Shown: in pieces, positions 5,339 through 27,382 of the stretch
Layout of the letters: each line of letters starts with the position of its first letter
How positions within the stretch are numbered: the stretch's first letter is position 1
From: Cognaticolwellia beringensis
Lineage (GTDB): Bacteria > Pseudomonadota > Gammaproteobacteria > Enterobacterales > Alteromonadaceae
DNA length: 64,000 nucleotides
Assembly: GCF_002076895.1 (NCBI RefSeq)
Contig: NZ_CP020465.1
Location: 496,001 to 560,000, forward strand
Direction: 5' to 3'
Position numbers and translations under genes: made by a program
The notes under the pieces: model-generated
What the model was told of the DNA's origin: nothing
The model's input: only the letters and a program-made list of their open reading frames with translations
The model's database searches: none

Positions 5339-5361
5339 TGGTGGCCCCTCCCTGACTTGAA
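5339..5361 (-). pseudogene. 3' part of the disrupted tRNA-Ile(CAU) gene (left attachment side)
   Basis: Minus strand, 5361 to 5339: TTC AAGT CAGGG AGGGGCC ACCA. This is the end of the T-loop, the 3' T-stem strand, the 3' acceptor strand and an encoded CCA. It lacks everything upstream. Joined to the 5' part at 27382-27326 (sharing the TTC once) it makes a complete 77-nt tRNA with paired acceptor (GGCCCCT/AGGGGCC) and T-stem (CCCTG/CAGGG). The split marks the left end of the integrated island. Confidence 0.9.
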
Positions 5362-5364
5362 TCA

Positions 5365-5374
5365 TTATGTGGTA
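5365..5374 (+). repeat. Left terminal inverted repeat of the island
   Basis: TTATGTGGTA, exact inverse complement of TACCACATAA at 27316-27325. It sits three bases (TCA) inside the GAA triplet shared by both tRNA halves. It probably forms half of the binding site for the island's tyrosine recombinases. Confidence 0.75.
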
Positions 5375-6131
5375 AAAAATATTTTGTTTTTCTTACTGAC
5401 CGTAGGGAGCGAGGTGTGTGTATTTTTGTAAGTTTTTTTATGAATGTCTTAGTAATAGGGGTGTTTAGCTTGATATTTAGCTCCATACATTGTAAATATT
5501 TTTTTGATTTTTAATTTTTACATATATGCAGGTGATTTGCGTATATTAAGTATTTAACTTTCTTGCATAAATGAACTCCTTCCAGTGAAATGCCAATGTT
5601 CGTTTCGAGCAAGCTCAAATACGCTCCATCGGCTAATGTAAAAAGTAGAGATTTTGATAAGTTTAGCTTAATTGAAAGGTAGGAATAAAAGTCTAACTTA
5701 CGGACATAATGTTAATCTAATTGATGTACAATTAGATTAACTCATCAATGCGGCTATAATTAGATTTTAGAGGTCTTTCATCATTATCTAAAGCAACTAT
5801 CGTCTATACTTAAACAGCACACTATTAGCTGTCATTTTGCCACTTAGTGTATTTAAGTGTAGCCTTATTTAAAACCATTCTCTTCAAGTCACTCATTGTG
5901 AAGTGATTCAGCATTTTTGTATAAATTAGCAAACTGAAAAAACTGCTTTGGTTGGAATTGAAATAATTGGATTTCAGCTTCTGGATAAAAATTGTTATTT
6001 CCAGTCCAATTTCCAATTATCTCTTTATGCTATTTTGCAGGAAAAAAACTTCCTGCTGATATTTATATTTAGAAGAATCTTTAATTTTTGCATTATAGTA
6101 GTGCGGACTTCACTCTAACTCATTGCTCATA
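5375..6131. other. Left end of island, no confident gene
   Basis: Between the left terminal repeat and the end of the TrlF-like gene I see no convincing gene. A 63-codon frame on the minus strand (5825-6016) has no recognisable features. The stretch does hold a perfect 13-bp inverted repeat at 5711-5741, an extra half site at 5758-5766, and a hairpin GCAGGAA/TTCCTGC at 6037-6056 that may end the minus-strand operon. An 11-mer GATTTGCGTAT at 5534-5544 recurs inverted at 27308-27298 near the right end. Confidence 0.4.
5711..5741. repeat. Perfect 13-bp inverted repeat (possible operator)
   Basis: GTTAATCTAATTG (5711-5723) and CAATTAGATTAAC (5729-5741) are exact inverse complements around a 5-bp centre. 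A further AATTAGATT occurs at 5758-5766. The arrangement looks like an operator for a dimeric regulator rather than a terminator, because no T-run follows on either strand. No gene that it clearly controls was found next to it. Confidence 0.5.
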
Positions 6132-9100
6132 TTAATCCTTGTTGTACTTTTGTTCGCGATTATTAAACGCTGGCATTGTACCTTCCAACACATTCACCAC
6201 TTTCTGGTTGATTACGCGGCTCTCTATAGCGCCTGTCGTATATGTAATACTGCTATCATTTTTCCTATTAAAATCACAATGAATGATCTGCTCTGCATCA
6301 CAAACAACAGCCAAATTTGGGTTATGAGTCACCATTATTATTTGACGGCTTTTTTTCGCCTCACAAAGTACAGGAACCAACAAGCTGACAATAGTCTCGT
6401 TATCTAAGTTTTCTTCAGGCTGATCCAAAATTATCGGCATACTTCCCTTATCAACCAATAGATAGAAAATTAAGAGCAAGGCTCCTCGTTGACCAGGTGA
6501 CAATTGTTCGATATGTGCATCTTGAAATAACAACGTATAACGTGGTGTTAAAAAGCCTAAACTATAAATTAAATCATAAACTTCATAAGGTTCTTTATTT
6601 TTCCGCATAATAGATTTTATGCTTGCTGTATCATTTGATGTGCCATGCAGCTTCAATAACAAGTCTGATGTAAAGCCCTCAACACCTTCTTTTGTATTGA
6701 TATCATTCTTATCCATAAGACTTACGATTAGATTAAAACTCTCTTCCTCCCCCCTAAACTCGCCAGAGCTTTGTTTAATGAGTTCAAATAATTTGCTACT
6801 AAAATATTCGGAAGTACATGTTATTTCAGATCTAAATTGCAGTTTATATTCATCTCGGATCAAGCTATTGTTCTGAATTAACTGTTGGACAGGATTAAAT
6901 AACAACTCTCTTGATGATCTTTGTTCATCCAAAACATTAAAAATCTCTAATGTTAACTTTCCTCGTTTCTCTAATTGATCTTCTTTCGTTGCTGGTATTT
7001 TATCAAGTTGTTCAAGCCTTGCCTTGAGACCTAGTAATGAATCTGGTTCGTCTTTATTGCCTTTAGCATTAGTAACCTTTGCTTCCCAAGCAATAATGTC
7101 TTCAAGATATTTTTGATAAATCTGCTGCGGTGCATCCAATTGCGTACTTAGTTTAGATTGTTTATCTTTCAAAGTGACAATTTGATCATCAAGTTTTGAT
7201 TGCTCTTCCTGTAATTTGATCTTCTGTTCTGTGGAAGTATTTTCAACTTCTTCCAACTTGTCATAAGAGACTGTTAACTGTGCTAAATTATTTAGACTTA
7301 ATCCAATAACTTTTGCGTCAGGTTCAGCATTAATCTCAAACTCAATAAAATTTCGTTTCAGTAGACCCAAATGCTCACGTAAGTTTTTGCATGCTTTTAA
7401 TTTTAGAGAAAATGACGTAATTAAATCATTATTTGAAGTTTGTATATCTACCGCAGCTTTAATATTGTCTGCAAGTTCAGATAATTGGGTTGTAAGTGCT
7501 TTTTGCTCTACAGATAGTTCTTCTGTTGGTTTTATAATTTCAACAGGCTTAATGTTATTCATTTCATCAATAACATGCTGCTTATGAGTAATTCTCTGTA
7601 ATATAGAGCTACGAATCCTAGGTTCTAGCTGGGCTTCATTCTCTGCTATTTCTTTATTCAATTTAGATAAATTTGCTCTAACATGCGTAAGTTTATCTCT
7701 GACAGAGTTTTCTTGAATATCAATTAATTGATCAAAATCTAAAGCTCCTAGCCTGATACTTTCATCAGCATGAGAGAAGATTACAGCTCTAAGTTCTTTT
7801 TCAAAAGCATTACTCTTGCCTGATACATGGGCATTACAAAGCTCTTCAAAATGTCCTTGTGGGATGTATTTTACTAATTCAACTGATTCAACGTCAGGAT
7901 TTAATGCAAGATTTTTAGAAATACTTGTAGAGTCCGCCCATAAAAGTTCCGCATCAAAATACTTAGCGGGTTCTCCATTACGGCCTCGAAACCTTTCTTT
8001 TTTAAGAAAGGAAAAATGGTGACTTTGCTTAGAGTTTCCTAATAGTGCTGTTATGTCTGCCAAAGCACTTTTACCACTTCCTTTGTTACCTATTATTGCA
8101 ACTAGGTCAGAGTTCAATGTAATTGATGTTGCATCTAGCCAATTTCCAGTCTCTGGCTTAGCTTCTGTATTTTTAGATATCTTTATAGTTTCAATAAACT
8201 GGCTTTTATTAGTTTCATACAATTCAAGTTTACTTGGCTTAGCGCCTATACAAGAACGTTTAGCTGGTTCCTTTATAGCTTGCTTTAATCCTGCAAAAGT
8301 TGGATTTGCTTTAATCCAGGTGATTTTACCCGAAGGATAATCCCCATAACCTCGTTTATCATTATCGCCTGACACACCTACAAATTGATGGGCATCACTG
8401 CCAGAAACAGCTAGCCTTGGTATATTTTTTAATGTCTCTTGAAAAGAATCAATCCATTTTATATTTTTATTTGTTTTAACTCCTGCAAAAGCTTCCCATG
8501 ATTCTTGCTTTCGAGTTTCAAAAATTGGCGAGGTTTTAAAAAGCCCAAGAGTGTATGAGTAATGCGCATTTCGAGCTATATCAGTTAAACCGTCATATGT
8601 ATCGAAAGGCATAAATCCAATAGCTTGATCATTAGGAACTTTTTTAATAGCATCCTTATAACTATCACAATTCAATTCCGCCATAACTGATCCGGCATGC
8701 AAAGCATGTTCATCAAAATCATTAACCTTACTGATGTCAAATGAATGATGGCTTAACTTATCTGTACCAACAGTTCTTGCAAACTGTATTAATGCATCAT
8801 CGGATAAGTTTTTAGGGTCCTGACCAGGAAATTCGATTTTAAGGTTTGATTTAAAGTCACGTAGATCTTGATCTTTTATCTTATCAGAAAAAATCACATG
8901 AGCATTCAAACGACCCTTCATTGGAGCCATTAATCGCAATTCAATACCTGGAAAAACAGTCTTATTCAATTTAGGTGCATCTGCTTGCTTGAGCCTATTC
9001 TTTAGAGCAAACCAACCACCAAAGGTCCAATAGTCCATTAATGCAAATACTGCTGGTTTAGCATTATTTAAAGCATTTATCATTTCATCTACTAGTGCAT

Positions 9101-9221
9101 TGTTTGATGCTGATAAAGGATCTCCTTTAAATTTTTGTCCGTTCCAATGAAATGAAGCTGGTGTATGAATGTGAAGATCCCACTGTCTCCATTCTGACCC
9201 TTTAGGGTAATTACTGCTCAT
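6132..9221 (-). CDS. TrlF-like protein: PHP domain fused to an ABC/SMC-type ATPase
   Basis: A 1029-residue protein. The N-terminal third is a PHP-type metal-dependent phosphoesterase domain (WDLHIHTP at about residues 13-20, SGSDAHQF around 272). It is followed by a split ABC/SMC-type ATPase: Walker A GNKGSGKSAL around residue 378, a long charged coiled-coil region (about 480-740), signature LSPGQRG around 906, Walker B ILDQPEENLD around 930, and an H-loop in VTHNP. NCBI calls this architecture TrlF family AAA-like ATPase. By analogy with other SMC-like nucleases in defence islands it may sense and cut foreign or modified nucleic acid, but this is inference. It lies 29 bp after hsdR and probably shares its operon. 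Confidence 0.75.
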   Translation of the reverse strand: MSSNYPKGSEWRQWDLHIHTPASFHWNGQKFKGDPLSASNNALVDEMINALNNAKPAVFALMDYWTFGGWFALKNRLKQADAPKLNKTVFPGIELRLMAPMKGRLNAHVIFSDKIKDQDLRDFKSNLKIEFPGQDPKNLSDDALIQFARTVGTDKLSHHSFDISKVNDFDEHALHAGSVMAELNCDSYKDAIKKVPNDQAIGFMPFDTYDGLTDIARNAHYSYTLGLFKTSPIFETRKQESWEAFAGVKTNKNIKWIDSFQETLKNIPRLAVSGSDAHQFVGVSGDNDKRGYGDYPSGKITWIKANPTFAGLKQAIKEPAKRSCIGAKPSKLELYETNKSQFIETIKISKNTEAKPETGNWLDATSITLNSDLVAIIGNKGSGKSALADITALLGNSKQSHHFSFLKKERFRGRNGEPAKYFDAELLWADSTSISKNLALNPDVESVELVKYIPQGHFEELCNAHVSGKSNAFEKELRAVIFSHADESIRLGALDFDQLIDIQENSVRDKLTHVRANLSKLNKEIAENEAQLEPRIRSSILQRITHKQHVIDEMNNIKPVEIIKPTEELSVEQKALTTQLSELADNIKAAVDIQTSNNDLITSFSLKLKACKNLREHLGLLKRNFIEFEINAEPDAKVIGLSLNNLAQLTVSYDKLEEVENTSTEQKIKLQEEQSKLDDQIVTLKDKQSKLSTQLDAPQQIYQKYLEDIIAWEAKVTNAKGNKDEPDSLLGLKARLEQLDKIPATKEDQLEKRGKLTLEIFNVLDEQRSSRELLFNPVQQLIQNNSLIRDEYKLQFRSEITCTSEYFSSKLFELIKQSSGEFRGEEESFNLIVSLMDKNDINTKEGVEGFTSDLLLKLHGTSNDTASIKSIMRKNKEPYEVYDLIYSLGFLTPRYTLLFQDAHIEQLSPGQRGALLLIFYLLVDKGSMPIILDQPEENLDNETIVSLLVPVLCEAKKSRQIIMVTHNPNLAVVCDAEQIIHCDFNRKNDSSITYTTGAIESRVINQKVVNVLEGTMPAFNNREQKYNKD

Positions 9222-9250
9222 ATATACTTAATCCTTTAATTTATTATTCA

Positions 9251-11770
9251 TTATTCATATAAATACTTCTGACAACCAACAAATGCATTGCTAATAATAG
9301 GTATCGAACCCAATGTTTCTGCGGCATCGCTGATCGAGCCATACTTCAATTCAAGTAATGACTTCATGTTGGTGCGTGATAACTGAGATACACCGTCTCT
9401 AATATAATGACTAAGAATGAAGTCGATAAACTCACGTTGTTTGTCATCAGTAAAAGTATCCCTAATTGGTGAACCAGCTTTCGTTACTCGCTCTTTACGA
9501 GACAGTGCTTCTGAGGCGTAAGCAACAAAGGCTAATACGTCATATACATCACTGTCTTTCGCATCAATGAGCGCTTTCATGTCTTCAAGTTTTTCGCTGT
9601 CGTAACCTAAGTCATTAAGATTAATTAGCAATGCTTCCCTTGTCGTTGGGTCACTCCAGATAGACCTAAGCTGCTCTTCGTTTTCAAAAAATTGTGGCAA
9701 ATCATCAAACAGGTTTTGTAAAAACTCTTGGATAGGAATTGGCTTACCTTCTGCGCTCCAGAACATTACCGATGAGATGTGTTGAATTTGGCGTGATTTG
9801 CCATCGCTAAGCTTTATAACGACCTTTTCTTTACAGGTACATGGTAAGTTATTACATACATCACAAGGCTCTGGTTCACATATACAGGGGTTGTTATCAC
9901 ATTTAGGACAATTTGGTATAGGGCATGAACATGGGCTGTCACCACATTCTTCACACGGAGGCTCAGGGCAACAACAAGGGCTAAAGCCACAAGTTTCACA
10001 AGGCTCTTTTATACAACTACAGGGTGTATCATCACAAACGGTACATGGATCTTCTGGTAATGGCTCACCATCCCATTCAGGGTCGGCAAAGTTATGATGC
10101 GCTTTTACAAAATCATAAATAGTGAAGTAGTCTTTACCGTCATATACCCGCGTACCACGACCAACAATTTGTTTGAATTCAATCATGTTCTTACATTCAC
10201 GCATTAACACGATATTTCTTACGTTTCTGGCATCAACACCAGTAGATAATTTACGAGAAGTCGTCAGTATTGTGGGTATCGTTTTTTCGTTGTCTTGGAA
10301 TATTTTTAGATCTGTTTCACCCGCTTTACCGTCATTAGCCGTTACCCGTACACAATAGCTAGTATTAGTGGTCCAGCCTTTTTTAACAGCATAGGTATTG
10401 ATATAATCACGAACAAAACCTGCGTGTGCTTGGGTTGCACAAAACACGAGTGTTTTTTGCTGAGGATTGATGCTGTCCATCCAATACTCAACACGTCTTT
10501 CTTCACGCTTATCTATAGTAATAATGCGGTTAAAGTCACCTTCTTTATATACTTTACCTGGCTCTGGTTCGCCTTTAATAACGGCTCCATCGCCCGGAGT
10601 GAAAATGTACTCATCCATTGTGCCAACGATTGGGTAAACTTTAAAAGGCGTTAAGAAACCATCGTTTATGCCCTCTTTAAGCGTATAGCTATAAACGGGT
10701 TCACCGAAGTATTTATAAGTATCCGAATTATCTTTTCGCTTTGGTGTAGCGGTTAAACCTAACTGAACAGCAGGGGAAAAATATTCTAATACCGCTCGCC
10801 AACTACTCTCATCTTTAGCTCCGCCACGGTGACACTCATCAATCATGATAAAATCAAAGAAGTCTGCTGGGTAGTCGCCAAAGTAAGGTGCATCATCACC
10901 GTTAACATCCTTACCTGACATGAATGTTTGAAAAATGGTAAAGAACACACTGCCGTTTTTAGGTACTCGACCTTTCTTTTTAATTTCACTTGGGTCGATA
11001 CGAACTATGGCATCTTCTTCAAAAGGAGAGAATGAGTTAAAAGCTTGGTCTGCGAGTATATTTCTGTCGGCTAAGAATAAAATACGCGGTCTGCGTTTAG
11101 CTTGTGCTGGTGTTTTTTGAGCGCTTAAGCTCCAACGGCTATGGAATAGTTTCCACGCTAATTGAAAGCCAATAAAAGTCTTTCCTGTACCAGTAGCTAA
11201 CGTTAATAGCACTTTAGGTGCGCCTTTAGCGATAGCTTCTAAAGCATTATTAATGGCGTTATCTTGATAATAACGAGCAGTCCAACTGCCGCCTTTGGTC
11301 TCATAAGGCACATCAGCAAAACGTTGTCGCCATTGAGTAGCAAAGTCAGGCTCTTGCGCATCAAAGGTTAATGCCCAAAGTTCTTGTGGTGACATAAACT
11401 TATCAACCAAACCAGCTACGCCAGTTTTCATGTCAATCTGATAAATTTCATGACCATTGGTGGCATAAGCAATACTACATTGTAGACGAGTAGCATAGTC
11501 TTTAGCTTGACGAACACCTTCGGTATAACTTAATTCTTCTTTTTTGGCTTCAACTGCGGCAAGTTTTTTACCTTGGTAAACTAAAACGTAGTCACTGGTT
11601 ACACTATCACCACGTTTACCGCCTGTTAGTATACGACCAGGGCATATGACCTCTCTACGAATAAAGCTATGCTCTAATTCACTCCAACCAACATGATGTA
11701 GTTTGGGATCAATTAAATCTGCTCGTGTATCCGCTTCGTTTTTATATCCTTTATTGCTTGAGGCCATCAA
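9251..11770 (-). CDS. hsdR: Type I restriction enzyme R subunit HsdR, with a five-fold Cys-rich repeat
   Basis: An 839-residue motor and nuclease subunit of a type I restriction system. The N-terminal HSDR_N nuclease domain has SDYVLVYQGKKLAAVEAKK (about residues 63-81). The helicase domains show Walker A LATGTGKT (about 191), DECH in the motif II segment (about 313), TATPKR (about 341) and the motif VI-like QIVGRGTRV (about 536). The C-terminal part resembles the EcoEI-type R C-terminal domain. Unusual: residues about 572-646 are five 15-residue repeats of the pattern PCxxCxxxPCxC (20 cysteines). The gene lies 16 bp after hsdS. Start is one of two adjacent ATG codons. Confidence 0.93.
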   Translation of the reverse strand: MMASSNKGYKNEADTRADLIDPKLHHVGWSELEHSFIRREVICPGRILTGGKRGDSVTSDYVLVYQGKKLAAVEAKKEELSYTEGVRQAKDYATRLQCSIAYATNGHEIYQIDMKTGVAGLVDKFMSPQELWALTFDAQEPDFATQWRQRFADVPYETKGGSWTARYYQDNAINNALEAIAKGAPKVLLTLATGTGKTFIGFQLAWKLFHSRWSLSAQKTPAQAKRRPRILFLADRNILADQAFNSFSPFEEDAIVRIDPSEIKKKGRVPKNGSVFFTIFQTFMSGKDVNGDDAPYFGDYPADFFDFIMIDECHRGGAKDESSWRAVLEYFSPAVQLGLTATPKRKDNSDTYKYFGEPVYSYTLKEGINDGFLTPFKVYPIVGTMDEYIFTPGDGAVIKGEPEPGKVYKEGDFNRIITIDKREERRVEYWMDSINPQQKTLVFCATQAHAGFVRDYINTYAVKKGWTTNTSYCVRVTANDGKAGETDLKIFQDNEKTIPTILTTSRKLSTGVDARNVRNIVLMRECKNMIEFKQIVGRGTRVYDGKDYFTIYDFVKAHHNFADPEWDGEPLPEDPCTVCDDTPCSCIKEPCETCGFSPCCCPEPPCEECGDSPCSCPIPNCPKCDNNPCICEPEPCDVCNNLPCTCKEKVVIKLSDGKSRQIQHISSVMFWSAEGKPIPIQEFLQNLFDDLPQFFENEEQLRSIWSDPTTREALLINLNDLGYDSEKLEDMKALIDAKDSDVYDVLAFVAYASEALSRKERVTKAGSPIRDTFTDDKQREFIDFILSHYIRDGVSQLSRTNMKSLLELKYGSISDAAETLGSIPIISNAFVGCQKYLYE
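9832..10056 (-). repeat. Five 45-bp repeats inside hsdR encoding Cys-rich motifs
   Basis: The translated units are DPCTVCDDTPCSC, EPCETCGFSPCCC, PPCEECGDSPCSC, PNCPKCDNNPCIC and EPCDVCNNLPCTC, each with two linking residues. The 15-residue period is exact and the spacing of cysteines is constant, so these may be zinc-binding knuckles. The protein-level pattern is well kept while DNA sequence has diverged, so the repeats are old or selected rather than a recent duplication. Confidence 0.85.
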
Positions 11771-11786
11771 TAATTTCCTTATTCTA

Positions 11787-12956
11787 TTATGCTAATTCAC
11801 CATTAAAGGCTTTTTGTAAGATGGATTGTTTAAGTTCGTTAAGTAAATCTAGTTTTTTCTGGTAACTAATCTGTAAAGATTGAGTTTGGTTACTTAATTT
11901 CACCATTTGTGCTACCTGATTTTTTTGTTCATCTAGATTTGGAAACGAAAGTTTTATTTTTCTCAAATCACTATTGTATAACCTTGAAATTGTTGCTCCC
12001 TTGGAAGGGTTCCAATCACATACTCCATAAAACTGATATAAATACTCGTTAAGCACCAATTTTTCGTCATTATCAATCCAAACAATATTAGAATCTTGAA
12101 AATATCCAGGCTTTCCATCATAAATAACTCGTCTTCCAATTGTTCCTGACGCTGAAATTAGGATGTCACCTTTTTTAGGAAATGAATATTTCTGTTTAAA
12201 TTCTTGATATACGTCATTGGAAATATATGCATTGGCTGCTTTTCCAAATGTTCCTATTTTATAAAAGGGAATATCACCTACAGTTGAAGTTTGTTGTTTC
12301 AATATCCTTTTACACATAGATACCTTACCTATTTCTCCCACCGTTATTTCAAGCCTGCCTTCGCCACATTGACTAAAAACGTTCTGCGAATAACTTTCAA
12401 ACAACTCTTTAGCATTCTTTAAATTCTGCTCAGCATTAGACTTAGCTTTTTCAATATCAGCAAAAGCTTGATCTAGTTTGGCGACAATTTGTTTTTGGAT
12501 TTCAATATCCTGAGGATAACTGACTTTTAATTGAGACCATTTCGATTTGTTGATTATAGGTAAAGTCGCTTGTCCTGATTTTAAAATAACATTACGCTGA
12601 AAATTTTGGCTTAACATAGCGTAATAAAAAAAACGGGGATACAGGTTATCATTCGGAGTAAAGCTATTTATCTGCTGATTACAAGTAATGTCAATATTTG
12701 TGAATCCTGTTTTTCCAATTGTCGCTCCAATACAAACCATCAAAATACTGTTTTTATCGATTAACCTAGAGCTTTTCAATCCTAATTCACTTAAACCATC
12801 TTGATCATAATCAAGGCTTCCATCTTTACTAAAATTTGCTGGCTTTATAAAAGGAATGAAGTCACCAAAGTTCTCTTTCACCGATGTCTTGGGGGTATTA
12901 CCTGTTTTTATTACACCTAACTGAGACAGCTCTTCCGTAACCCATACTTGGCTCAT
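11787..12956 (-). CDS. hsdS: Type I restriction-modification specificity subunit HsdS
   Basis: A 389-residue DNA-recognition subunit. It has two target-recognition domains (about residues 1-150 and 200-350), each followed by a coiled-coil helix: the segment KQIVAKLDQAFADIEKAK near residue 165 and the C-terminal LDLLNELKQSILQKAFNGEL. The second ending is characteristic of HsdS. The start codon overlaps the hsdM stop (ATGA), so the two are translationally coupled. HsdS would determine the sequence methylated by HsdM and cut by HsdR; the target cannot be predicted by eye. Confidence 0.93.
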   Translation of the reverse strand: MSQVWVTEELSQLGVIKTGNTPKTSVKENFGDFIPFIKPANFSKDGSLDYDQDGLSELGLKSSRLIDKNSILMVCIGATIGKTGFTNIDITCNQQINSFTPNDNLYPRFFYYAMLSQNFQRNVILKSGQATLPIINKSKWSQLKVSYPQDIEIQKQIVAKLDQAFADIEKAKSNAEQNLKNAKELFESYSQNVFSQCGEGRLEITVGEIGKVSMCKRILKQQTSTVGDIPFYKIGTFGKAANAYISNDVYQEFKQKYSFPKKGDILISASGTIGRRVIYDGKPGYFQDSNIVWIDNDEKLVLNEYLYQFYGVCDWNPSKGATISRLYNSDLRKIKLSFPNLDEQKNQVAQMVKLSNQTQSLQISYQKKLDLLNELKQSILQKAFNGELA

Positions 12957-14419
12957 AAAAGATCCTTGATGTTTCTTAAAATAGTTTCACTTTCTTTGTC
13001 GAGTGCAATAATTTTTTCTATGATATCTACTGGCTCTTGTAATATCTTTTCTTCTTCTACATTAGGGTTTTTAGAAGACAAATCCATAGTACTTTGATCT
13101 AATTCATTGACATTAACTGACCAAGACTTATCAGAATCAACAAAGTTTTTTTGTAAAGTAACAAATTCTTTTAGATCATTGTCATTAAGCGCATTAGTTT
13201 TCCCCATATTACGGCCTGGATTTAATTCATAAAACCATGTTTTCTCTGTTGATGTTCCTTTTTCAAAAAATAGAACTACGGTTTTAACACCCGCACCAAT
13301 AAACGTTCCGCCAGGGCAATCAAGTACAGTATGCAGATTACAGTTTTCTAATAACTCTTTACGCAAGGCAACAGCAGCATTGTCGGTATTCGATAAAAAG
13401 GTATTTTTGATAACAATGGCTGCACGACCACCGGGTTTAAGTGATTTAATAAAGTGCTGTAAGAATAAAAATGCTGTTTCACCTGTTTTAATAGTAAAGT
13501 TTTGCTGTATCTCTTTACGTTCCTTTCCTCCGAACGGTGGGTTAGCTAGAATAATCTGATGTTTATCATGTACTTGCATGTCTGACATATCTTGAGCAAG
13601 TGTATTAGTGTGAATAACATTAGGTGCCTCAATGCCATGCAAAATCATATTCATGATTGCAATGACATATGCTAGGGATTTTTTTTCTTTCGCATAGAAA
13701 GTATCTTCTTGCAGTATTTTTAGCTCTTTAGGTGAAACTGGTTTTTTATCTGCACCACCTTGACGTAAATAATCAAACGCTTCACACAGGAACCCAGCAG
13801 AGCCTGCCGCACCATCATAGATAGTTTCACCTATCTTTGGCTGTATAACGTCTATCATGGCTCGTATGAGCGGTCTAGGGGTGTAATATTCACCACCATT
13901 ACGACCAGCGTTACCCATATTCTTTATTTTTGATTCATAAAGATGAGAAAGCTCATGCTTTTCAGCTTGTGAACGAAAACGCAGTTCATCAACTTTTTCT
14001 AAACAATCACGTAATGAATAACCACTTTGGATTTTATTTTTTATCTCACCAAAAATTTCACCAATTTTGTATTCTATTGTATTAGGGCTTTCAGCGCGTT
14101 GCTTGAAACCTTTTAAATAGGGGAATCATTCGGTATCGACATAATCCATTAAATCTTCACCCGTTAAGGCGTTATTGTGATCAAAGTCGCCTTTAGCATC
14201 TTTAGGCGCAGCCCATGCTGTCCAGCGATGTTGCTTATCGATAATGAACTGGTATTCTTCACCCAAAAGCTCAGCATTCAAAGACTTTTCATGCTCTAAA
14301 TCATCTAGGTATTTAAGAAATAACATCCACGATGTTTGTTCTGTGTAATCTAACTCGCTGCTACATCCAGCATCTTTATGAAGAGTGTCATCGATATTTT
14401 TAAACGTTTGTTCAAACAT
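12953..14419 (-). pseudogene. hsdM: Type I methyltransferase HsdM interrupted by one in-frame TGA
   Basis: Two in-frame pieces, 14419-14126 (97 codons plus stop) and the rest to 12953, make a 488-residue HsdM when read through. The TGA is at 14128-14126, in the sequence YVDTE-stop-FPYLKGF, where relatives have a leucine; TTA to TGA is a one-base change. Translation on both sides stays in frame and well conserved: HsdM N-terminal domain, DGAAGSAGFLCEAF (SAM motif I), and the catalytic ILANPPFGG (motif IV). A restart at the ATG at 13918 would lack the N-terminal domain. Either the methyltransferase is newly inactive, the TGA is read through, or the base is a sequencing error. Loss of HsdM would normally also disable HsdR cleavage. 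Confidence 0.88.
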
Positions 14420-14473
14420 TATTATTTAGTTCCTGATAGGCTTTCGCCTATTAAAATTATTTCTATTCTTTAT

Positions 14474-15370: not shown

Positions 15371-15485
15371 TGATGAGAATAGAGGGGGTATTCTCATCAA
15401 AAAAACATCTATATTGATTAGAATACAAGAATTATTAGGATAAATCATTTATTCTAATCAAAAGTGATGCCATTATGATTAGAAT
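15371..15485. promoter_or_regulatory. Operator-like array upstream of fic
   Basis: Two inverted repeats share one half-site type. TGATGAGAAT (15371-15380) pairs with ATTCTCATCA (15390-15399), and TTCTAATCA (15452-15460) pairs with TGATTAGAA (15476-15484). A single TGATTAGAAT copy lies between them at 15415-15424. The last pair ends 17 bp before the chosen Fic start, so the array most likely covers its promoter. The Fic protein has a C-terminal helix-turn-helix, so it may bind here itself. Confidence 0.6.
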
Positions 15486-15501
15486 GAAAAAGGTAACTAA
15501 T

Positions 15502-17820: not shown

Positions 17821-17874
17821 CTTAAAATATACTTAATTACTCAATAGGGCGATATTAAAGCTTGTCGTTAAATA

Positions 17875-20097: not shown

Positions 20098-20555
20098 ACA
20101 AAGCGCCTTCTTCCATCATCAAGCATTGATTCATGTGCTTCAGACTTTCCTTTAAGCTTATGCTCTAGTGCTTTTTTTTCTTGTTCTAATAGAGCTACCA
20201 CTTCACGTAACTTATAGACTTCAGCGGTAGTTCTCTCAAGCTCTTTTGACAATTTGGAAGCACTCTTGGATGCTTCGTCTTTTTGTTTTTTTAGCGAAGA
20301 CTCAACCTCACTTTCATCCTTAATTTGCGTGCCAATCAACTTAATGTCTTTTGCTAATTGTTTGGATAATTCCGACTCCTTATCTGCAAAAGAACCACGT
20401 TCGAATCCACACTCTTCAGCTACTGATGTTAAATTTACGTTTCCAAACTGATTAAGAGGAAACTTACCACCAGTGGCTTTGAGTTTTGCCACGTATGCAC
20501 AATAATTCTCTTTATTGAGCTTGTTTTTTTCGTTTGGAGAAAGCTTATTGGTCAT
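20088..20555 (-). CDS. Coiled-coil protein of the GMT operon, unknown function
   Basis: 155 residues, not recognised as a named family. Residues 1-60 look like a small DNA-binding-type domain (VAKLKATGGKFPLNQFGNVN), and residues 65-140 are strongly charged with heptad-like spacing, a probable coiled coil. It overlaps gmtX by 11 bp and the helicase by 10 bp, so it is almost certainly a real translated gene. The N-terminal pattern (growth of a short motif such as FPLNQFGNVNLTSVAEECGF) resembles small DNA-binding partners of recombinases, but I cannot name it. Confidence 0.75.
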   Translation of the reverse strand: MTNKLSPNEKNKLNKENYCAYVAKLKATGGKFPLNQFGNVNLTSVAEECGFERGSFADKESELSKQLAKDIKLIGTQIKDESEVESSLKKQKDEASKSASKLSKELERTTAEVYKLREVVALLEQEKKALEHKLKGKSEAHESMLDDGRRRFVWD

Positions 20556-21210
20556 CTTGAACAGTACCTTTATACAAATAGCTATCGAAAATAGTTGATG
20601 AAATCAGTAGCTTTTCATTTGCAACTACGTTGTTAGCCGTTTTGCTACAGTTGATGATCTTGTTATCGTCAAAAATAAAGACCCCATCAGAGGCTTGAAC
20701 TAATGCCAGAATAATTTTGTGTGTTGCATCTAAGGCTATTGCCGTTGAATGTTGTTCGATATTGTCTGCGGGGAGTTCAGGTAACGGTTTATTATTAACG
20801 TGAGCTAGATTTTTTTTCGCAAAGTTTTTAATTGCAGTAAGTTCATCTTTTAATTGTGATATCTCCAACTGATAAGTTAAAACTCTAACTTGCAGTTCAT
20901 TTAGGTTGTCAGATTTTGCACTGGCTAACAGATGTTTTTCAAGATAATTTAGGTATTTCGAACCAGGGCGAACTACACCGTTGGCCGAAATCGGGCCTCG
21001 CTTTGTGGCAAATATGTCAGGGTATTCGTGTTTCAATACCCGGTTTACTTCTTCCGCCACGTATTCTCCCAGTTGGGTGACATTTGGAAATGTAATTTTA
21101 CGCTTGGTGAGTTCACGTAATACCGATTTGATCAATTTAGTTCTCAAAGCTACTTTATCGACTTGGTGACTACCGAACCGGTTATCTCCTTTATTTGCGC
21201 CTCTACTCAT
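20545..21210 (-). CDS. gmtX: Gamma-mobile-trio protein GmtX
   Basis: 221 residues, third gene of the trio. The N-terminus (residues about 18-75) looks like a helix-turn-helix that reads LTKRKITFPNVTQLGEYVAE, then RGPISANGVVRPGSKYLNYL; a helical stretch (about 90-125) follows. Similar small proteins accompany the recombinases of other multi-recombinase elements. It overlaps gmtZ by 8 bp at the start and the coiled-coil gene by 11 bp at the end. The assignment comes from size, order and association with GmtY and GmtZ; its biochemical role is not known to me. Confidence 0.72.
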   Translation of the reverse strand: MSRGANKGDNRFGSHQVDKVALRTKLIKSVLRELTKRKITFPNVTQLGEYVAEEVNRVLKHEYPDIFATKRGPISANGVVRPGSKYLNYLEKHLLASAKSDNLNELQVRVLTYQLEISQLKDELTAIKNFAKKNLAHVNNKPLPELPADNIEQHSTAIALDATHKIILALVQASDGVFIFDDNKIINCSKTANNVVANEKLLISSTIFDSYLYKGTVQDDQ

Positions 21211-24200
21211 TGAACATCTCCAGTAATTGAGTGTTACCGATAGACGGTTTCATTGGTTCAGAAAGGCGCTTTGCAGCTTCTGACAATGAAATACCTTGTG
21301 TTTCGACAAACGCTCTTAAAATACCCCTGAATTCATCTAGTAAATCAAATCCATCGGGCTGCTGTAATAGCTTGTCAAACTTCTTTTGTTTGATTAATAT
21401 TTTATTTCTAAGTTGGGTGATTTGAGCTTTCAACTGAGGGGTGAAATATTCTTGGAATTCGTTTGCGTCCTGAATCCTTAACAGCAAAGTGCTGATTGGA
21501 TTGTCTTCGACTTCACCTTTAATAAATTTTTTCATCAACATATCAGGTCGTGCGACAAGGAATTTTGGTGGGTTTTTAGCGTTCTTATCTTCCAATTGCG
21601 CACGGTTGGCTTCCAAAATTTCATAGGTATAAAACCAAGCTGCCAATTCATCAGAAATTTGATTTTTTTCATTCTCCATCAAATCAAGTGCTTCAACGTC
21701 AGCCCCTGCTTTGTCAGCTTCCACTATACTTTTTATTTTTTCTGTTATTTCATAATTCAGCTTGCGTATGTGCGCCAATATGCGTGGGATGTGGTCCACC
21801 GTTTTAATCGAATAATAACATTGGCCACATTTGTATTCCCCATATTCTGACTTAATCTCATCAGGGCACTTACCACCGAAGGGGCATATATGCAATGGCA
21901 TATAGGCCACATTGGAAACAGGTGTAATTGCTATAGTTTTTAATCCTCCTTCGTAGCTACCTTTACTGGTTTCTACGGTAAATGCAACAGCACCGAAGTC
22001 ACTACTTAATAATGTTGGGTCATGTTCAACTACTCGCTTAAGCTTTTCATTGGTTTTTTCTTGTTGCCGCTTAGTTAAGATGTCGTTATTTGTTTTTTTC
22101 AGATGCGTGTCACTCAAAAGTAAACTCTCGTTGTGTTCACCAATTTCTTTGAGCCAGTCAAGATCAACCTGAATATAATAAGACAGTACCGCACGGCTTT
22201 CGTGGCCAGTAATGAACTCTTGAATTGCACGGGGTGGCAGTATCTTAATTTTTTCGCTTGCAACGGACGATCTAGTACCATGTGGCTTAAAGTCAGTTTT
22301 ATATTGTCCGTTAAAGTAGAACGCAGGCTTAGTGCCAATTTTTGACGCGTGCTTTATAAGTGCCTGCTCTCTTAGCTCTGTATCTTCGGCCATCGCGGTT
22401 GCTAGCTCTGGGTCTTCAGCCAGTTCTGCGGCCAGTTCTTTAGGTGCTTGCTTGACTGCCTTGTCTATTTCATTCATTGCTTTTGTCGAGGTAACCCCAA
22501 GAAGAGGCACATCAAGCTTAGATAGCTGAATAAACAGATCATAAAAGCACAACAACCGTTTGTACTGGCTGCGACAAACATCACCTGAAAATACAGATGG
22601 TATTGCTTCCTTGGCATTCATTGTGCAAAAAATGGATTTAATCTTGCCATGAATCGAGTCTTCATCATTGTCATACCATAATGAAGGAACTTCAATATCA
22701 AGAGTCTCTTGAAATGCCTTGATCCGCTTTAGCAAATTAATCACTCGACTACTGACATATGGATTCCAAGGTTCAGTTTTAACTTTATCAGTACCAACTT
22801 CAATCGAACCTGATTCACCAGCCCTGCTATAATGCACATGCAGTTGACTAATGTAATCGCTTCTACTTTGACCCATTATACCTACATCGAACTTATCTCT
22901 ATCCAGCCACCGGATGTGTAGATGTCTCAATCCGGCTTCAAGAGCAATCAGTGGTTCAAACAAAGCCTGGAAGGTGGGATAGGGGTAAAGTTTCCCATTT
23001 CGCATTGATGTTATTTCACTTGTTAGGTTAGCAGCTATAAAATATATAGGTTTTAGTTTGCCTTCGATAAGCACTATGGGAACATAGCCAACTTCCTGAG
23101 TGTCATAAACATGCCTAAATTTTGGCGCTCCATTGATGAATTTTTCTTCTTTGATTAAATACCAATAAAACTCACATATGGCAGATATAAATGAGTGTAT
23201 ATGGCCAAATTGTTTTCTTGGAAAAGCTAACTTGTTGGTTCCTTTTCTAGCCGATGTAATCTTAAAGTCCATGGGGAAGATTGGATTTACAAACCCTGTA
23301 ACATCAGGATCTGAATCTTCATATTCCATTGATAACCATTCAAAAAAATCAGATAAATCCCTAAGATGGGTATTAAAATTCTCATTACTTAATTTACGGC
23401 TAAGTTTTTCTTTTAAACCTGAGATGGCCCAATTTCCGCTAAAATGAGTACGGGTAAATTTACTAGGTGTCTCAGGAATAAGCTCACTGTCTATCCCCAG
23501 TTCAAGGGGTAAATCCACAAATATGAATTGGATAAGTTTAGTTAGTGCCGCTTTTTTTGATTTACTTACTTTATGACCCTGAGCTTTCCATACAGTCAGA
23601 TATTGTCGAGCCAAATTCGCCCATTTATCACTAGTTTGGTTACTGGTTTTATTTTTCGTATCTTCTCGAAGGAGTTTTCCCGCGCTGCTATCAGTCAATG
23701 CAAGATGTAAGTTATCAGGTGTATAGTTACATTGTTCAGGGGCGAACTGATAAACCAATAAGAGCAAATCCAACAACTCGAAATTAAATGTAGTATGGCC
23801 TATTTGTTTTTTGTGCTGATGCATCCTCTGAAATTCAAATGCATCTTGCAAATGGATATCTTTTACATTGTGCCAATTTGACGCAATGATGGCCTTGTAT
23901 AATAAATTTGGTGCCCAAACGTTATCGTAATCTTCAGGCTTAAAGTGTTTTTTATGATTCAAAAATATCTTCAACAGTTCAGGGTAGTGTTCCTCTGAAT
24001 AGTCTACATCCCCAATGTTTGCGGGGACAAAATTCATCGGCAACAGAATTGCTTTTGCACTATAAAGATTTAGAAAAAATACTTTTAAGGCGTACTTGAA
24101 TTCGTGTGAGAATTCTAATTTCCAAAAGACGATATCTTTGCTTACTCTAACAAACCGTGCAATATCTTCCGATGAAATATAGTCATGATCTATTAGCTCA

Positions 24201-25303
24201 TAAAGGTATATCAAGTCATTAAAACTGAGTTCCTTCGCCTCCTCAAATACATAAATAAAAGCGAGGCGAGTGGTTTTATAGTCACGATTAGGATATGTCC
24301 CGATACTAACTTTTTTATTGTAAAAACGGCTCAGCAATACATCATATGTACGATCCAAAGTGGTTGATATGGCTAATGCAAGGGCATCGCCTGTTAACAT
24401 AGGCTTTAACTTGTTGGTTAAATTAGCATCGAACGTTATTCCACATTCAATTTTTTTACCTGTTTGTTTTTTAAATTCGCTCTCTTTCTTTACTGTTTCC
24501 GAATTTTTTATGTCAGTGATATTAAACTTACATTTATCAGGTGCATAAGACAAAAAACCAGATAATATTGTTGAAAATGGAAGCGAAATTATTTTGTTAT
24601 TGTACTTCTCATTTTGCGATCTAAGCTTATGATAGAATGTTTTAAATTCTGTAACATCACCTATTTTAATGTCTTCAATCGAATACCAATCAGTAACAAT
24701 TAGGCACTGGTAACCAAAGTCTCTCACGAAAGTATCTTTATCATTTACATGTTCACTAAAATCCTCATACCTTTGATCTTTAAAATGGATATTTCTAATT
24801 AATTTAAGTGTTTCTGGGTATATTGACAGTCCCAGTTCAACCCAGCCCTTTATGTCATGATCATAAGTTCTAGGGGGTCTGTAATGGAACGGAAGTAGTA
24901 CCGCACCTTGTGCCCATAGTATGTAAAAAAACAACCTATAGGCTAACTTGCTAGCTTTGTAGCTTGTCTTGGTCAGCTTTGCATCATCTTCAAAGGTTGG
25001 CAATAACGTTGTGATAATTTTAAAGCCAATATAAACTTTGCTTGCCTCAAGACTAATATCAAAAAGACTTCTGCACCAACTCTCATCAAACTCAACTCTG
25101 CTAGAATGTTGGTGATCGTGAAAATACTTGTAAAAAACAAGAGTAAGGTTTGTTTTACTAGTCACTTGAGAAGGGGTGATAGTTTTAGGTGTTTTATTTC
25201 GCTCAAATATCAACCTGATGGTTTCATCTATCGCATCATGAATAGCTTCTTCCAGTTCAAGTCCAGATTTCAAAAAATGAAGTTCCGTAGAACAGTTAAT
25301 CAT
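21203..25303 (-). CDS. gmtZ: Gamma-mobile-trio large integrase-like protein GmtZ
   Basis: A very large protein (1366 residues), soluble, with no signal peptide. The region around residues 1005-1050 has tyrosine-recombinase-like box II features: HGTRSSVASEKIKI, TGHES and SYYIQVD, comparable to HxxR, (L/T)GH and the catalytic tyrosine. Around residue 1135 there is a cysteine cluster (CPFGGKCPD and KCGQCYY) that may bind zinc. The rest, roughly 980 residues, has no motif I can name. The start overlaps gmtY by ATGA; the end overlaps gmtX. In the described GMT islands this protein works with GmtY in mobility. The call is by architecture and context. Confidence 0.78.
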   Translation of the reverse strand: MINCSTELHFLKSGLELEEAIHDAIDETIRLIFERNKTPKTITPSQVTSKTNLTLVFYKYFHDHQHSSRVEFDESWCRSLFDISLEASKVYIGFKIITTLLPTFEDDAKLTKTSYKASKLAYRLFFYILWAQGAVLLPFHYRPPRTYDHDIKGWVELGLSIYPETLKLIRNIHFKDQRYEDFSEHVNDKDTFVRDFGYQCLIVTDWYSIEDIKIGDVTEFKTFYHKLRSQNEKYNNKIISLPFSTILSGFLSYAPDKCKFNITDIKNSETVKKESEFKKQTGKKIECGITFDANLTNKLKPMLTGDALALAISTTLDRTYDVLLSRFYNKKVSIGTYPNRDYKTTRLAFIYVFEEAKELSFNDLIYLYELIDHDYISSEDIARFVRVSKDIVFWKLEFSHEFKYALKVFFLNLYSAKAILLPMNFVPANIGDVDYSEEHYPELLKIFLNHKKHFKPEDYDNVWAPNLLYKAIIASNWHNVKDIHLQDAFEFQRMHQHKKQIGHTTFNFELLDLLLLVYQFAPEQCNYTPDNLHLALTDSSAGKLLREDTKNKTSNQTSDKWANLARQYLTVWKAQGHKVSKSKKAALTKLIQFIFVDLPLELGIDSELIPETPSKFTRTHFSGNWAISGLKEKLSRKLSNENFNTHLRDLSDFFEWLSMEYEDSDPDVTGFVNPIFPMDFKITSARKGTNKLAFPRKQFGHIHSFISAICEFYWYLIKEEKFINGAPKFRHVYDTQEVGYVPIVLIEGKLKPIYFIAANLTSEITSMRNGKLYPYPTFQALFEPLIALEAGLRHLHIRWLDRDKFDVGIMGQSRSDYISQLHVHYSRAGESGSIEVGTDKVKTEPWNPYVSSRVINLLKRIKAFQETLDIEVPSLWYDNDEDSIHGKIKSIFCTMNAKEAIPSVFSGDVCRSQYKRLLCFYDLFIQLSKLDVPLLGVTSTKAMNEIDKAVKQAPKELAAELAEDPELATAMAEDTELREQALIKHASKIGTKPAFYFNGQYKTDFKPHGTRSSVASEKIKILPPRAIQEFITGHESRAVLSYYIQVDLDWLKEIGEHNESLLLSDTHLKKTNNDILTKRQQEKTNEKLKRVVEHDPTLLSSDFGAVAFTVETSKGSYEGGLKTIAITPVSNVAYMPLHICPFGGKCPDEIKSEYGEYKCGQCYYSIKTVDHIPRILAHIRKLNYEITEKIKSIVEADKAGADVEALDLMENEKNQISDELAAWFYTYEILEANRAQLEDKNAKNPPKFLVARPDMLMKKFIKGEVEDNPISTLLLRIQDANEFQEYFTPQLKAQITQLRNKILIKQKKFDKLLQQPDGFDLLDEFRGILRAFVETQGISLSEAAKRLSEPMKPSIGNTQLLEMFNE

Positions 25304-26694
25304 GCGGCTTCCTCAGAAAGTAAACGATCTATCTCAGCCTTCACTTTTTCTAATTGGCTTTCTCGATATTTAAGACTGATCATTTTTAAATCGACTTCAT
25401 TTGCATTAAACAAAAGTTCATTGGCATATTCAACCTGAGCTTTCATAATATCTTCATCATGCTTTGCATAGACTTCCGTTGAATCGAGTGATACATGACC
25501 CATCAATATTTTCACGTAAGCGATGGGTAAACCAAACTCTCCGTTTGGCAAAGGCAAGTAATTAAGGACATATGTTCCGTAGGTATGTCGTAATGAATGT
25601 GGACTTATACATGTAGTATCTTCTAATCCTGACCTCTTAGCAGCTGTTTTGAATTGCTTGATCCTGCTGCTTCTATCCGAACAAAAGAATGGTCTTAAAG
25701 TTTTATAATTCTGGAAAATAAAAGGATGTCCACAAGTTGATACTCTCTCTTGCTTTAAGTAATCGGTTAAGTAGCTAAAAAACATTGATTTGAAAGGTTC
25801 AATAAGAAATGTTGTCTCAGTATTTCTGCCTTTCCATGCTAATCCTTCTTCTTCTTTGGGTGTCAATCCAGACGTATTTCTGTCTATTAAGCTTGGATCT
25901 CGTAAATACACATCTTTAGTTATCACATCAAAATCGGTGATTTTCAACTGGAGGGCTTCATGTGATCGGGCACCTGAAGCAGCCAAAAATGAGTAGATAG
26001 TCTTATCTCTGAGGTTCGTTGCAGAGTTTATTAATTTAGTAACACACGACAACTCAATAGACTGCGTTGTATAAATCCGATTATTTGATTTTGATCTTTT
26101 TCTAGTTAATATTCCATACGAGACACGTTCTTTAGCTGTTAGACCTCCTTTAATTACCCCTGCGAGCATGCTGTGCTTCTTTATCCTTTTTTTCTCAGAT
26201 GCCGTGATTTCATGTTTTACAGCTTTAAAAAGTTGAGAAAGTACACCAGTTTGCTCATATTGCTCTAATTCACCGAGTTTAATAAAGTAAGAGACAGCAT
26301 GATCAATCGGTGCAAGTGAGCTGATACTAGTCTTTCGGACCTTGTCATTTTCCATCGCGATCTGGTTAACTACAGGATCTGCTGCATCTTTGCCATGCAA
26401 TAAATAACTTGTGTAGTTAAGAATAATAATTCGAAGTTGTGATTTATCAATTGGAGGAGGTGTTAGCTCAATCGCACGAGATATGTAGTTCAAAAATCTG
26501 AAGCTATGCTCAGCATAGCTATGAATGGAATTTGTTGCATAACCTCTCAAAATCATGTGCTCAACAAATGCTTGATATGGTCTGTATAAATTACCTTCTT
26601 TGTCGGTAATCATTCCATCAATTGGTTGGCCGACCATGTAAAAATATTTTTGTGCTGATTTACTATACATAAATATAATTCCCCTATTAATCAT
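25300..26694 (-). CDS. gmtY: Gamma-mobile-trio tyrosine recombinase GmtY
   Basis: 464 residues. It has an N-terminal SAM-like core-binding domain (about 30-180) and a C-terminal catalytic domain with arginine I in FLAASGARSHEALQL (about residue 240), the HxxR box in SPHSLRHTYGTYV (about 369), and GH plus the nucleophilic tyrosine in MGHVSLDSTEVYAKHDED (Tyr about 408). All key residues are present, so it should be active. It is the first of five overlapping genes. The start could be ATG 26694 (MINRG) or an ATG nine codons later (MYSKSAQK); the second would also be acceptable. It probably cuts at the inverted repeats at the island ends. Confidence 0.85.
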   Translation of the reverse strand: MINRGIIFMYSKSAQKYFYMVGQPIDGMITDKEGNLYRPYQAFVEHMILRGYATNSIHSYAEHSFRFLNYISRAIELTPPPIDKSQLRIIILNYTSYLLHGKDAADPVVNQIAMENDKVRKTSISSLAPIDHAVSYFIKLGELEQYEQTGVLSQLFKAVKHEITASEKKRIKKHSMLAGVIKGGLTAKERVSYGILTRKRSKSNNRIYTTQSIELSCVTKLINSATNLRDKTIYSFLAASGARSHEALQLKITDFDVITKDVYLRDPSLIDRNTSGLTPKEEEGLAWKGRNTETTFLIEPFKSMFFSYLTDYLKQERVSTCGHPFIFQNYKTLRPFFCSDRSSRIKQFKTAAKRSGLEDTTCISPHSLRHTYGTYVLNYLPLPNGEFGLPIAYVKILMGHVSLDSTEVYAKHDEDIMKAQVEYANELLFNANEVDLKMISLKYRESQLEKVKAEIDRLLSEEAA

Positions 26695-26836: not shown

Positions 26837-26863
26837 AAAAAAGACGCACTAGGCGTCTTTTTT
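26837..26863 (-). terminator. Terminator of the island tRNA-Ile gene
   Basis: AAAAAAGACGC (26837-26847) and GCGTCTTTTTT (26853-26863) form a strong bidirectional hairpin nine bases past the encoded CCA. It separates the tRNA transcript from gmtY, which starts about 140 bp further on. It resembles the terminator of the disrupted host tRNA at 5302-5328. Confidence 0.85.
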
Positions 26864-26871
26864 CTATAATA

Positions 26872-27200
26872 TGGTGGCCCCTCTGTGATTTGAACACAGG
26901 ACCTACCGATTCTGGTTATCTAATACTTTCGTACTAGCCTGGACTATATCATCACCCTCATCTAATTATACTTTAGACGGTGGGGTGTCGGACGCTAGTG
27001 ATGTATTAAACAGCAAGATCGTGCTGAACCATCTAGTCTCTGAACCTTCCTGATACGCTTATCAGGCTTGGCTGCTGATTGGCATGTTTCCAAAGAAACG
27101 AAGCTTTCCAGCAATTCATCCAATTTTTCCATATAGCATTACTGCTATAGGTCACAATTACTTATGAGTCGGGCGCTCTAACCAACTGAGCTAAGGGGCC
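26872..27200 (-). tRNA. tRNA-Ile(CAU) with a group I intron in the anticodon loop
   Basis: The 5' exon (27200-27164) reads GGCCCCT TA GCTC AGTTGGTTA GAGC G CCCGA CTCAT; the 3' exon (26911-26872) reads AA TCGGT AGGTC CTGTG TTCAAAT CACAG AGGGGCC ACCA. Spliced, they give a 77-nt tRNA with all arms paired except the 27-43 pair, which is also mismatched in the host copy. The CAU anticodon in this GGCCCCT...GACTCATAA context matches E. coli ileX/ileY, where the C is changed to lysidine to read AUA, so this is isoleucine rather than methionine tRNA. T-stem differences from the host copy (CTGTG/CACAG against CCCTG/CAGGG) are compensatory, which argues it is functional. Confidence 0.9.
26912..27163 (-). 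other. Group I self-splicing intron, 252 nt, no ORF
   Basis: All four conserved core elements are visible on the minus strand: P (GAATTGCTGGAAAGC), Q (AATCAGCAGCCAAGCC), R (GTTCAGAGACTAGA, within 27046-27029) and S (GATGATATAGTCC, within 26953-26937). The 5' exon ends in T of CAT and the intron in G, as required. The internal guide GTGA (in AATTGTGACC) can pair with exon TCAT through a terminal G-U. A P2 hairpin (TATAGC/GCTATA), P6 (CCTGATA/TATCAGG) and a GAAA-capped P9 (26937-26920) are also seen. Position and guide match the known Azoarcus tRNA-Ile intron. No homing endonuclease is encoded. Confidence 0.9.
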
Positions 27201-27268
27201 AAATTTTACTTTTAAATATGCAATTGATATTAACTCGCATATTAACGGCTTTACCGTCTATTTACAAG

Positions 27269-27297
27269 GTATAATACCCTATTTTTAGCCATTTCAA
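27269..27297 (-). promoter_or_regulatory. Weak candidate promoter for the island tRNA
   Basis: TTGAAA at 27297-27292 is followed at 15 to 18 bp by overlapping -10-like hexamers (TATTAT, TTATAC, TATACC) between 27276 and 27268. A second weak pair (TTGTAA, 17 bp, TAATAT) lies closer to the tRNA. Either could drive the intron-bearing tRNA independently of the host promoter upstream. Confidence 0.35.
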
Positions 27298-27315
27298 ATA
27301 CGCAAATCCTTACAA

Positions 27316-27325
27316 TACCACATAA
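27316..27325 (-). repeat. Right terminal inverted repeat of the island
   Basis: TACCACATAA on the plus strand, exact inverse complement of the left repeat at 5365-5374. It abuts the host tRNA remnant (GAA at 27326-27328) directly, without the three extra bases seen at the left end. Confidence 0.75.
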
Positions 27326-27382
27326 GAACAGGGGACCTGCCGATTATGAGTCGGATGCTCTAACCAACTGAGCTAAGGGGCC
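27326..27382 (-). pseudogene. 5' part of the disrupted tRNA-Ile(CAU) gene (right attachment side)
   Basis: 57 nt from 27382: acceptor GGCCCCT, D-arm, anticodon arm with CTCATAA, variable loop AGGTC, T-stem CCCTG and the first three T-loop bases TTC. It then passes straight into the island terminal repeat. It lacks the 3' T-stem strand and acceptor strand, so it cannot form a tRNA. It is still preceded by its own promoter (27462-27434). The matching 3' part is at 5361-5339. Confidence 0.92.

Follow-up and report, generated by a model that had tools for sequence, protein, structure and literature searches.

The island and the broken tRNA gene

The stretch of DNA analysed here (the window) comprises 64,000 nucleotides (nt), bases 496001-560000 of the complete, one-contig genome (4.66 Mb) of Cognaticolwellia beringensis. 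A 22-kilobase (kb) island at about 5362-27325 of the window interrupts the host transfer RNA (tRNA) gene for isoleucine with anticodon CAU, tRNA-Ile(CAU), within the TTC of its T-loop. Between the broken 5' piece of this gene and the tyrosine recombinase gene of the island lies a second, complete tRNA-Ile(CAU) gene on the same strand (26872-27201, minus strand), which is called the substitute hereafter. The features at the two ends of the island are as follows, the TTC being included in both host pieces wherever lengths or coordinates are given.

27326..27382, minus strand: 5' piece of the host tRNA-Ile(CAU), its first 57 nt, up to the T-loop TTC (BLAST, empty-site comparison)
27316..27328, minus strand: near end of the element, TTC followed by TTATGTGGTA, the inverted repeat of the far end
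27164..27201, minus strand: exon 1 of the substitute, its first base lying one ahead of tRNA G1 (splice site placed by us)
26912..27163, minus strand: group I intron of 252 nt within the anticodon loop of the substitute (inferred boundaries; matched by Rfam at 26920-27175)
26872..26911, minus strand: exon 2 of the substitute (splice site placed by us)
26837..26863, minus strand: hairpin and T-run downstream of the substitute, a putative terminator (by eye)
5359..5374, minus strand: far end of the element, with TACCACATAA, then three bases, then TTC
5339..5361, minus strand: 3' piece of the host tRNA-Ile(CAU), from the T-loop TTC through CCA (BLAST, empty-site comparison)

When the two host pieces are joined, ARAGORN finds a complete cloverleaf with the anticodon CAU. 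With 223 nt of the joined site as query (tRNA at 89-165), one end of the island matched positions 1-145 and the other 143-223, each at 100% identity, which confirms the split after CCCTG-TTC and the exact rejoining proposed in the original prediction, made from the sequence alone. Relatives without the island were expected to hold a single intact tRNA-Ile, and the gene was indeed uninterrupted, with a single match across the whole tRNA, in 15 of the 16 other genomes of the genus; the exception, G016, has a different island inside the same gene. As the flanks rejoin and the congeners keep the gene uninterrupted, the host tRNA must formerly have been one gene that was broken by the island. Within the genus, the host tRNA-Ile(CAU) is an integration hotspot. 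Four congeners (G001, G006, G010 and G014) have an intact tRNA-Ile and also an extra 3' piece 4-71 kb away, resembling the remnants of ordinary restoring islands.

The substitute and its uniqueness in the genome

The intron of the substitute passes the group I covariance model (RF00028, 97.6 bits against a cut-off of 50, positions 1-253 of 253), and the intron-free substitute folds into a complete cloverleaf, so that the island does bring a whole intron-bearing tRNA-Ile(CAU), as had been claimed. The T-stem difference noticed earlier is also present, with CCCTG in the host tRNA and CTGTG in the substitute. The hairpin at 26837..26863 is absent from the list returned by a terminator consensus scan.

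A tRNA census of the genome, in which 150 of 383 first-look candidates were scored, returned 79 tRNAs, with six Ile(GAT) and five CAU genes besides among them. Four of these five are identical genes, which we took for fMet, and the fifth we took for elongator Met; ARAGORN labels every CAU gene as Met. This census of the complete genome gave no further intact tRNA-Ile(CAU), and the close matches returned by BLAST with the host gene were limited to its two pieces and the copy on the island. No second host gene of this kind was thus found, and in the genome-wide count suggested by the original prediction the island copy is the only intact one met with. The tRNA-Ile(CAU) is usually essential, and its modification is carried out by TilS, the gene of which is present and scores above its cut-off. 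Three host genes of the window contain 4, 12 and 16 AUA codons.

Recurrence of the arrangement in related elements

An alignment of the recombinase was scanned against one genome per species, which gave 51 loci. A 5' piece of a tRNA or transfer-messenger RNA (tmRNA) gene ending exactly at TTC|TTA is present in 28 of these, and TTAT follows the TTC in all of the 28 except L047. The broken genes are of seven RNA types (12 Ile(CAU), 3 Arg(TCT), 5 Gly(CCC), 5 Ser(TGA), 1 Leu(CAA), 1 Leu(TAG) and 1 tmRNA). A clear intact substitute is found in 24 of the 28 broken loci, comprising 23 tRNAs beside the break and one tmRNA, the isotypes of the intron-bearing substitutes being partly read by eye. In the tmRNA case (L083, Sphaerotilus) the broken gene is accompanied by a complete tmRNA just inside the far end. 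The window shares with this family the break at TTC|TTA, an intact substitute of the same type, and a recombinase with a large partner protein. The latter was matched in all 25 related genomes, two of them without a visible break, and in 29 of 30 related loci, the lone exception stopping at a contig end.

Among the Ile(CAU) substitutes, those of L046-L048, L050 and L051 have no intron, hence the intron is optional. In L049, L052, L053 and L055 an intron lies just ahead of the anticodon, whereas that of the window follows it; these Pseudomonas-type introns thus sit at a different position of the loop, and L055 alone of the four passes the Rfam cut-off. The intronless CAU substitutes of L048, L050 and L051 have the discriminator C, unlike the host gene.

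The uniqueness of the substitute was also examined in 12 relatives with Ile(CAU) elements, using a Pseudomonas host-type gene as query. The best match ended at nt 57, the position of the break, in 11 of the 12 genomes and at nt 51 in G019, which has a shortened piece (L043); elsewhere in these genomes the near-full-length gene matches were at most 80% identical. The test is weak for the non-Pseudomonas genomes G017, G018, G019 and G022, whose own host pieces match the query at 82-90% only.

In a tree of 48 recombinases and GmtY, all 13 Ile(CAU) rows fall inside one clade of 17 (support 100/97), and the five rows of Gly(CCC) group into a single clade. The target labels need 14 changes on this tree against 27.3 in shuffles, none of 200 shuffles coming down to 14, the shuffles bearing on clustering only. 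From this clustering the target type seems to be inherited and occasionally switched. The long branches of G516 and G560 join in the tree and are possibly misplaced. The closest relatives of the window's recombinase point to Colwelliaceae as the probable family of its genome.

Element ends and proposed mechanism

The near end and the far end of the Ile(CAU) elements form inverted repeats, ACCACATAA-NNN-TTC and TTATGTGGT; the Gly(CCC) elements have an imperfect inverted-repeat pair and the tmRNA element a longer matching pair. Far ends were located in 11 of the 27 loci searched, and over the T-stem and acceptor stem ten of them pair with the 5' piece without mismatch and L047 with one (G-U allowed). 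At the near end no tRNA sequence follows the TTC and the broken gene remains broken. Since the ends share little with the target beyond TTC, the end of the target is not restored in the usual way, and because the NNN of the far end is often unlike that of the host, it was brought by the element. The recombinases of the window and L042 are 91-92% identical while the T-stems of their hosts differ (CCCTG and CAGTG), which argues that homology to the rest of the target is not required. Dispensing with target homology would fit the carriage of a whole gene.

It is highly probable that an integrative element with a tyrosine recombinase breaks a tRNA gene, and once a tmRNA gene, at the T-loop TTC and replaces it with a complete copy of its own. 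Direct reading of the sequence gives the break, the two ends of the element and the empty site in relatives; it also gives the substitute, shows it to be the only one found in this genome and shows the arrangement recurring in relatives. In the mechanism proposed, a crossover inside the T-loop TTC would insert the element and leave the target gene unrepaired, and the stand-alone copy, which lies close within one end and in most cases has the broken 5' piece on one side and the recombinase gene on the other, would take over. The recombinase, perhaps together with the large partner, may act on an attachment site (attP) whose 6-bp centre, NNNTTC, is flanked by inverted-repeat arms. The substitute would be transcribed and spliced and would carry the decoding of AUA. 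Carriage of the whole gene would free the element from homology to its target, making hosts with different T-arms usable, and the substitute may outlive the element and turn into the host's own gene.

Several observations weigh against this interpretation. No such break lies within the stretch examined at 23 of the 51 loci; several of these are weak or partial recombinase matches, and four unbroken ones (L044, L045, L054 and L056) sit within the Ile(CAU) clade of the tree. The adjacent substitute of L065 looks decayed, L075 has no substitute up to the contig end, and in L068 and L069 the tRNA of the same type lies on the opposite strand, 9.6 and 5.6 kb distant, and may be outside the element. 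The recombinase type is also rare, as 1 of 369 sampled genomes of the class has it at E <= 1e-20, which is the window's own; similarly, among 17 genomes of the genus the only strong match is that of the window, three others being at E 7e-4 to 8e-4. Moreover, promoter-like sites show no excess (4 against 3.2 in shuffles), and one of them precedes the host 5' piece.

Some loci have a second tRNA 3' piece past the far end (L046 with L131, joined positions 30593 and 33469; L055, 39494; L064, 32397). Both 3' pieces of L046 bear the same element end, hence this site has probably been used more than once. Similar 12-mers occur in the substitute leader and the recombinase promoter of L046, L048, L049, L050 and L061. 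In these 5 of 18 loci the repeat was reached by at most 2 of 40 shuffles, and in the window by 30 of 40; the 12-mers are possibly sites of a shared regulator or accessory sites.

Retained and re-hit substitutes

A group I intron search over 295 genomes of the order gave matches in nine, four of them above the cut-off. In six of the nine (the window's genome, G428, G560, G526, G516 and G613) the intron lies in a tRNA adjoining a broken tRNA piece, and the introns of G516 and G613 score just below the cut-off. G613, which belongs to another genus, has a broken piece of tRNA-Arg, which ends in TTC|TTATTTGG, and also an intron-bearing substitute, with host tRNA genes directly after it; here the island is gone and the substitute retained. 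In G516, of the same genus as G613, this substitute has in turn been broken at TTC|TTAT by a second element, which has a third, intronless tRNA-Arg(TCT), a large partner and a recombinase 29% identical to that of the window. A substitute can thus evidently be struck again. Between the two genomes the broken piece differs at 8 of 54 aligned positions and the substitute exons, up to the T-loop, at none of 57, as expected if selection acted on the substitute only. This pair is the best evidence that substitutes may become the gene of the host. An intron-bearing tRNA without an island had been named in advance as a finding that would speak against the original prediction. G613 does present such a case, for tRNA-Arg; since the broken piece persists there together with the element end, however, it is a fossil and does not refute the prediction.

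The breaks in G428 and G526 are near the anticodon arm, with broken tRNA-Arg 5' pieces beside an intron-bearing tRNA-Arg(TCT) (L180/L188 in G428, L182/L190 in G526). No recombinase of the window's type was found in the stretches examined, for G428 among the 8 open reading frames (ORFs) scanned, and these arrangements are probably another element type or fossils. Two further intron matches (L185 and L187) are in tRNA-Arg(CCT), with no broken tRNA piece in the stretch of L187 viewed. At L186 (G421:C1 near 1190453) the T-loop of a tmRNA is apparently interrupted by a group I intron (28.4 bits, which is below the cut-off of Rfam), and a LAGLIDADG-like ORF lies immediately downstream (by eye).

Alternative explanations

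The arrangement could come from a tRNA island of the ordinary kind, with an attP that formerly restored the 3' end, a later rearrangement having separated and duplicated the tRNA and left a broken copy. Pieces that restore the 3' end do occur at the same tRNA in the four congeners mentioned above. However, the same layout is met across seven RNA types, the substitutes diverge from the host gene along the 5' half too and not just past the crossover, and no tRNA sequence follows the TTC at the near end; this explanation is already disfavoured and we consider it very unlikely. Equally doubtful is the idea that the substitute is a passenger, the host coping without it and the broken gene costing nothing. 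The decayed-looking substitute of L065 would agree with this, whereas the lack of any other Ile(CAU) gene in the searches, the presence of TilS, the use of AUA by the host genes of the window and the unchanged exons of the G516/G613 substitute, beside a drifting broken piece, all speak against it.

In the original prediction it was suggested that the changed T-arm may block a second insertion and so act as an immunity device. T-stems differ in 12 of 15 pairs of host gene and substitute, and the raw rate of difference per base is 0.28 in the T-stem, compared with 0.19 for the anticodon arm together with the variable region. On the other side, the T-stems are identical in 3 of the 15 pairs (L041, L047 and L064), near-identical recombinases are found in hosts with different T-stems (that of L042 in a host with CAGTG), and the substitute of G516 was struck again at its T-loop. 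The identical pairs and the re-hit mean that the block fails as a general rule, and immunity is an improbable purpose of the T-arm. It was also suggested that the element may become hard to lose. Precise excision should regenerate the host gene, and a cell losing the whole element in this way would be expected to survive; losing only the substitute should be lethal or at least disfavoured by selection, and G613 does retain its substitute with the island gone. The last alternative is that the island is a gamma-mobile-trio (GMT) island, as the original prediction had named it, with an incidental tRNA layout. It does resemble GMT islands (PMC12039261) in having a recombinase followed by a large, weakly GmtZ-like protein and defence-type cargo, the recombinase itself matching GmtY weakly. 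Yet the NCBIfam scores are far under the family cut-offs, GmtY giving 41.3 bits against 340 and GmtZ 21.9 against 600, and with neither reaching its cut-off membership is rejected. The 221- and 155-amino-acid (aa) ORFs have no NCBIfam match, it being unchecked whether the library includes a GmtX model. Further, the branch of GmtY in the recombinase tree is very long. The original prediction had proposed to look for the same arrangement in other GMT islands, and the three GMT loci in 369 genomes (two GmtY loci above the cut-off and one partial) have no tRNA in their flanks of up to 1.5 kb per side. A GMT identity is hence very unlikely, and replacement of the broken gene by a complete copy carried on the element remains the preferred interpretation.

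Relation to known elements

According to the account of integration in the Islander database paper (PMC4383910), entry into a tRNA gene leaves the gene restored, and a review of archaeal recombinases (PMC8371274) likewise describes restoration of the tRNA gene upon integration. As in Islander-type islands, the window has a tyrosine recombinase (PF00589, 25300-26694) and a split tRNA (there a tRNA or tmRNA) with pieces at both ends, and the T-loop is a crossover place already described for them. In contrast, the Islander-type attP carries a fragment of the target and restores it, while the window element has no such fragment, shares TTC only and supplies a separate whole gene. It is one of the tRNA-gene islands with tyrosine recombinases, minus their restoring feature. 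The claim that the element destroys a gene and supplies a whole copy, against the restoring rule as worded in these two papers, is therefore upheld, and the pattern recurs through the recombinase family. Our literature search did not find whole-gene substitution by such elements described, and an earlier description may nevertheless exist.

Among intron-bearing bacterial tRNA genes, the tRNA-Ile of Azoarcus is of the CAU isotype. A group I intron in a tRNA-Ile gene of Azoarcus is reported in PMC3984707, and in this Azoarcus resembles the window.

The island in G016 splits the same tRNA-Ile(CAU) in the anticodon loop and has a P4-type integrase (PF00589 with Arm-DNA-bind_3) and AlpA. It too carries an intron-bearing tRNA-Ile, very like that of the window; hence the target gene is the same and the substitute similar, and the recombinase family and the position of the break differ. 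As the intron interrupts the loop used by the G016 integrase, it may shield the substitute from integrases that use the anticodon loop. The tRNA disruption model for archaea (PMC3293823, taken up in PMC8371274) proposes that tRNA introns are carried from gene to gene by elements and are able to block the attachment site. In its exposition there, unlike in the window, the introns are archaeal, attP restores the gene and whole-gene substitution plays no part. Going further, it can be speculated that this scattered family of recombinases replaces one tRNA or tmRNA gene after another in Pseudomonadota (and in a Geomonas), its own copies staying behind as genes of the host once the element has decayed, that it is a main vehicle by which tRNA group I introns lacking a visible homing-endonuclease gene pass from lineage to lineage, and that such introns are kept for hiding the anticodon-loop site from competing islands. 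This extended proposal is tentative and, taken as a whole, rather doubtful.

A family that breaks a tRNA gene and supplies another would provide a concrete route for the horizontal replacement of tRNA and tmRNA genes, which are core translation genes, and a way for selfish DNA to join the decoding apparatus, possibly carrying tRNA introns with it. It may explain some annotated tRNA fragments and oddly divergent tRNA genes, and it makes predictions open to laboratory test.

Other genes of the island

The remaining part of the island holds the recombinase, its conserved neighbours and the cargo.

25300..26694, minus strand: tyrosine recombinase of 464 aa (PF00589, with the catalytic residues conserved across the family alignment)
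21203..25303, minus strand: large partner protein, 1366 aa, weakly GmtZ-like (conserved next to the recombinase in relatives)
20545..21210, minus strand: protein of 221 aa, family not assigned (similar in 6 of 30 related loci)
20088..20555, minus strand: protein of 155 aa, family not assigned (similar in 9 of 30 related loci)
17875..20097, minus strand: RecD2-like helicase of 740 aa (a similar one in 14 of 30 related loci)
15475..16881, plus strand: cargo, Fic-domain protein
9251..15028, minus strand: cargo, type I restriction-modification genes (R, S and partial M) and a small serine recombinase
6132..9221, minus strand: cargo, TrlF-family ATPase

Six cargo proteins were compared, and none is similar in more than 3 of the 30 related loci. 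The type I methylase ORF (12953-15028) covers just the later part of its family (194-497 of 515), and the gene for the small serine recombinase adjoins the type I restriction-modification system.

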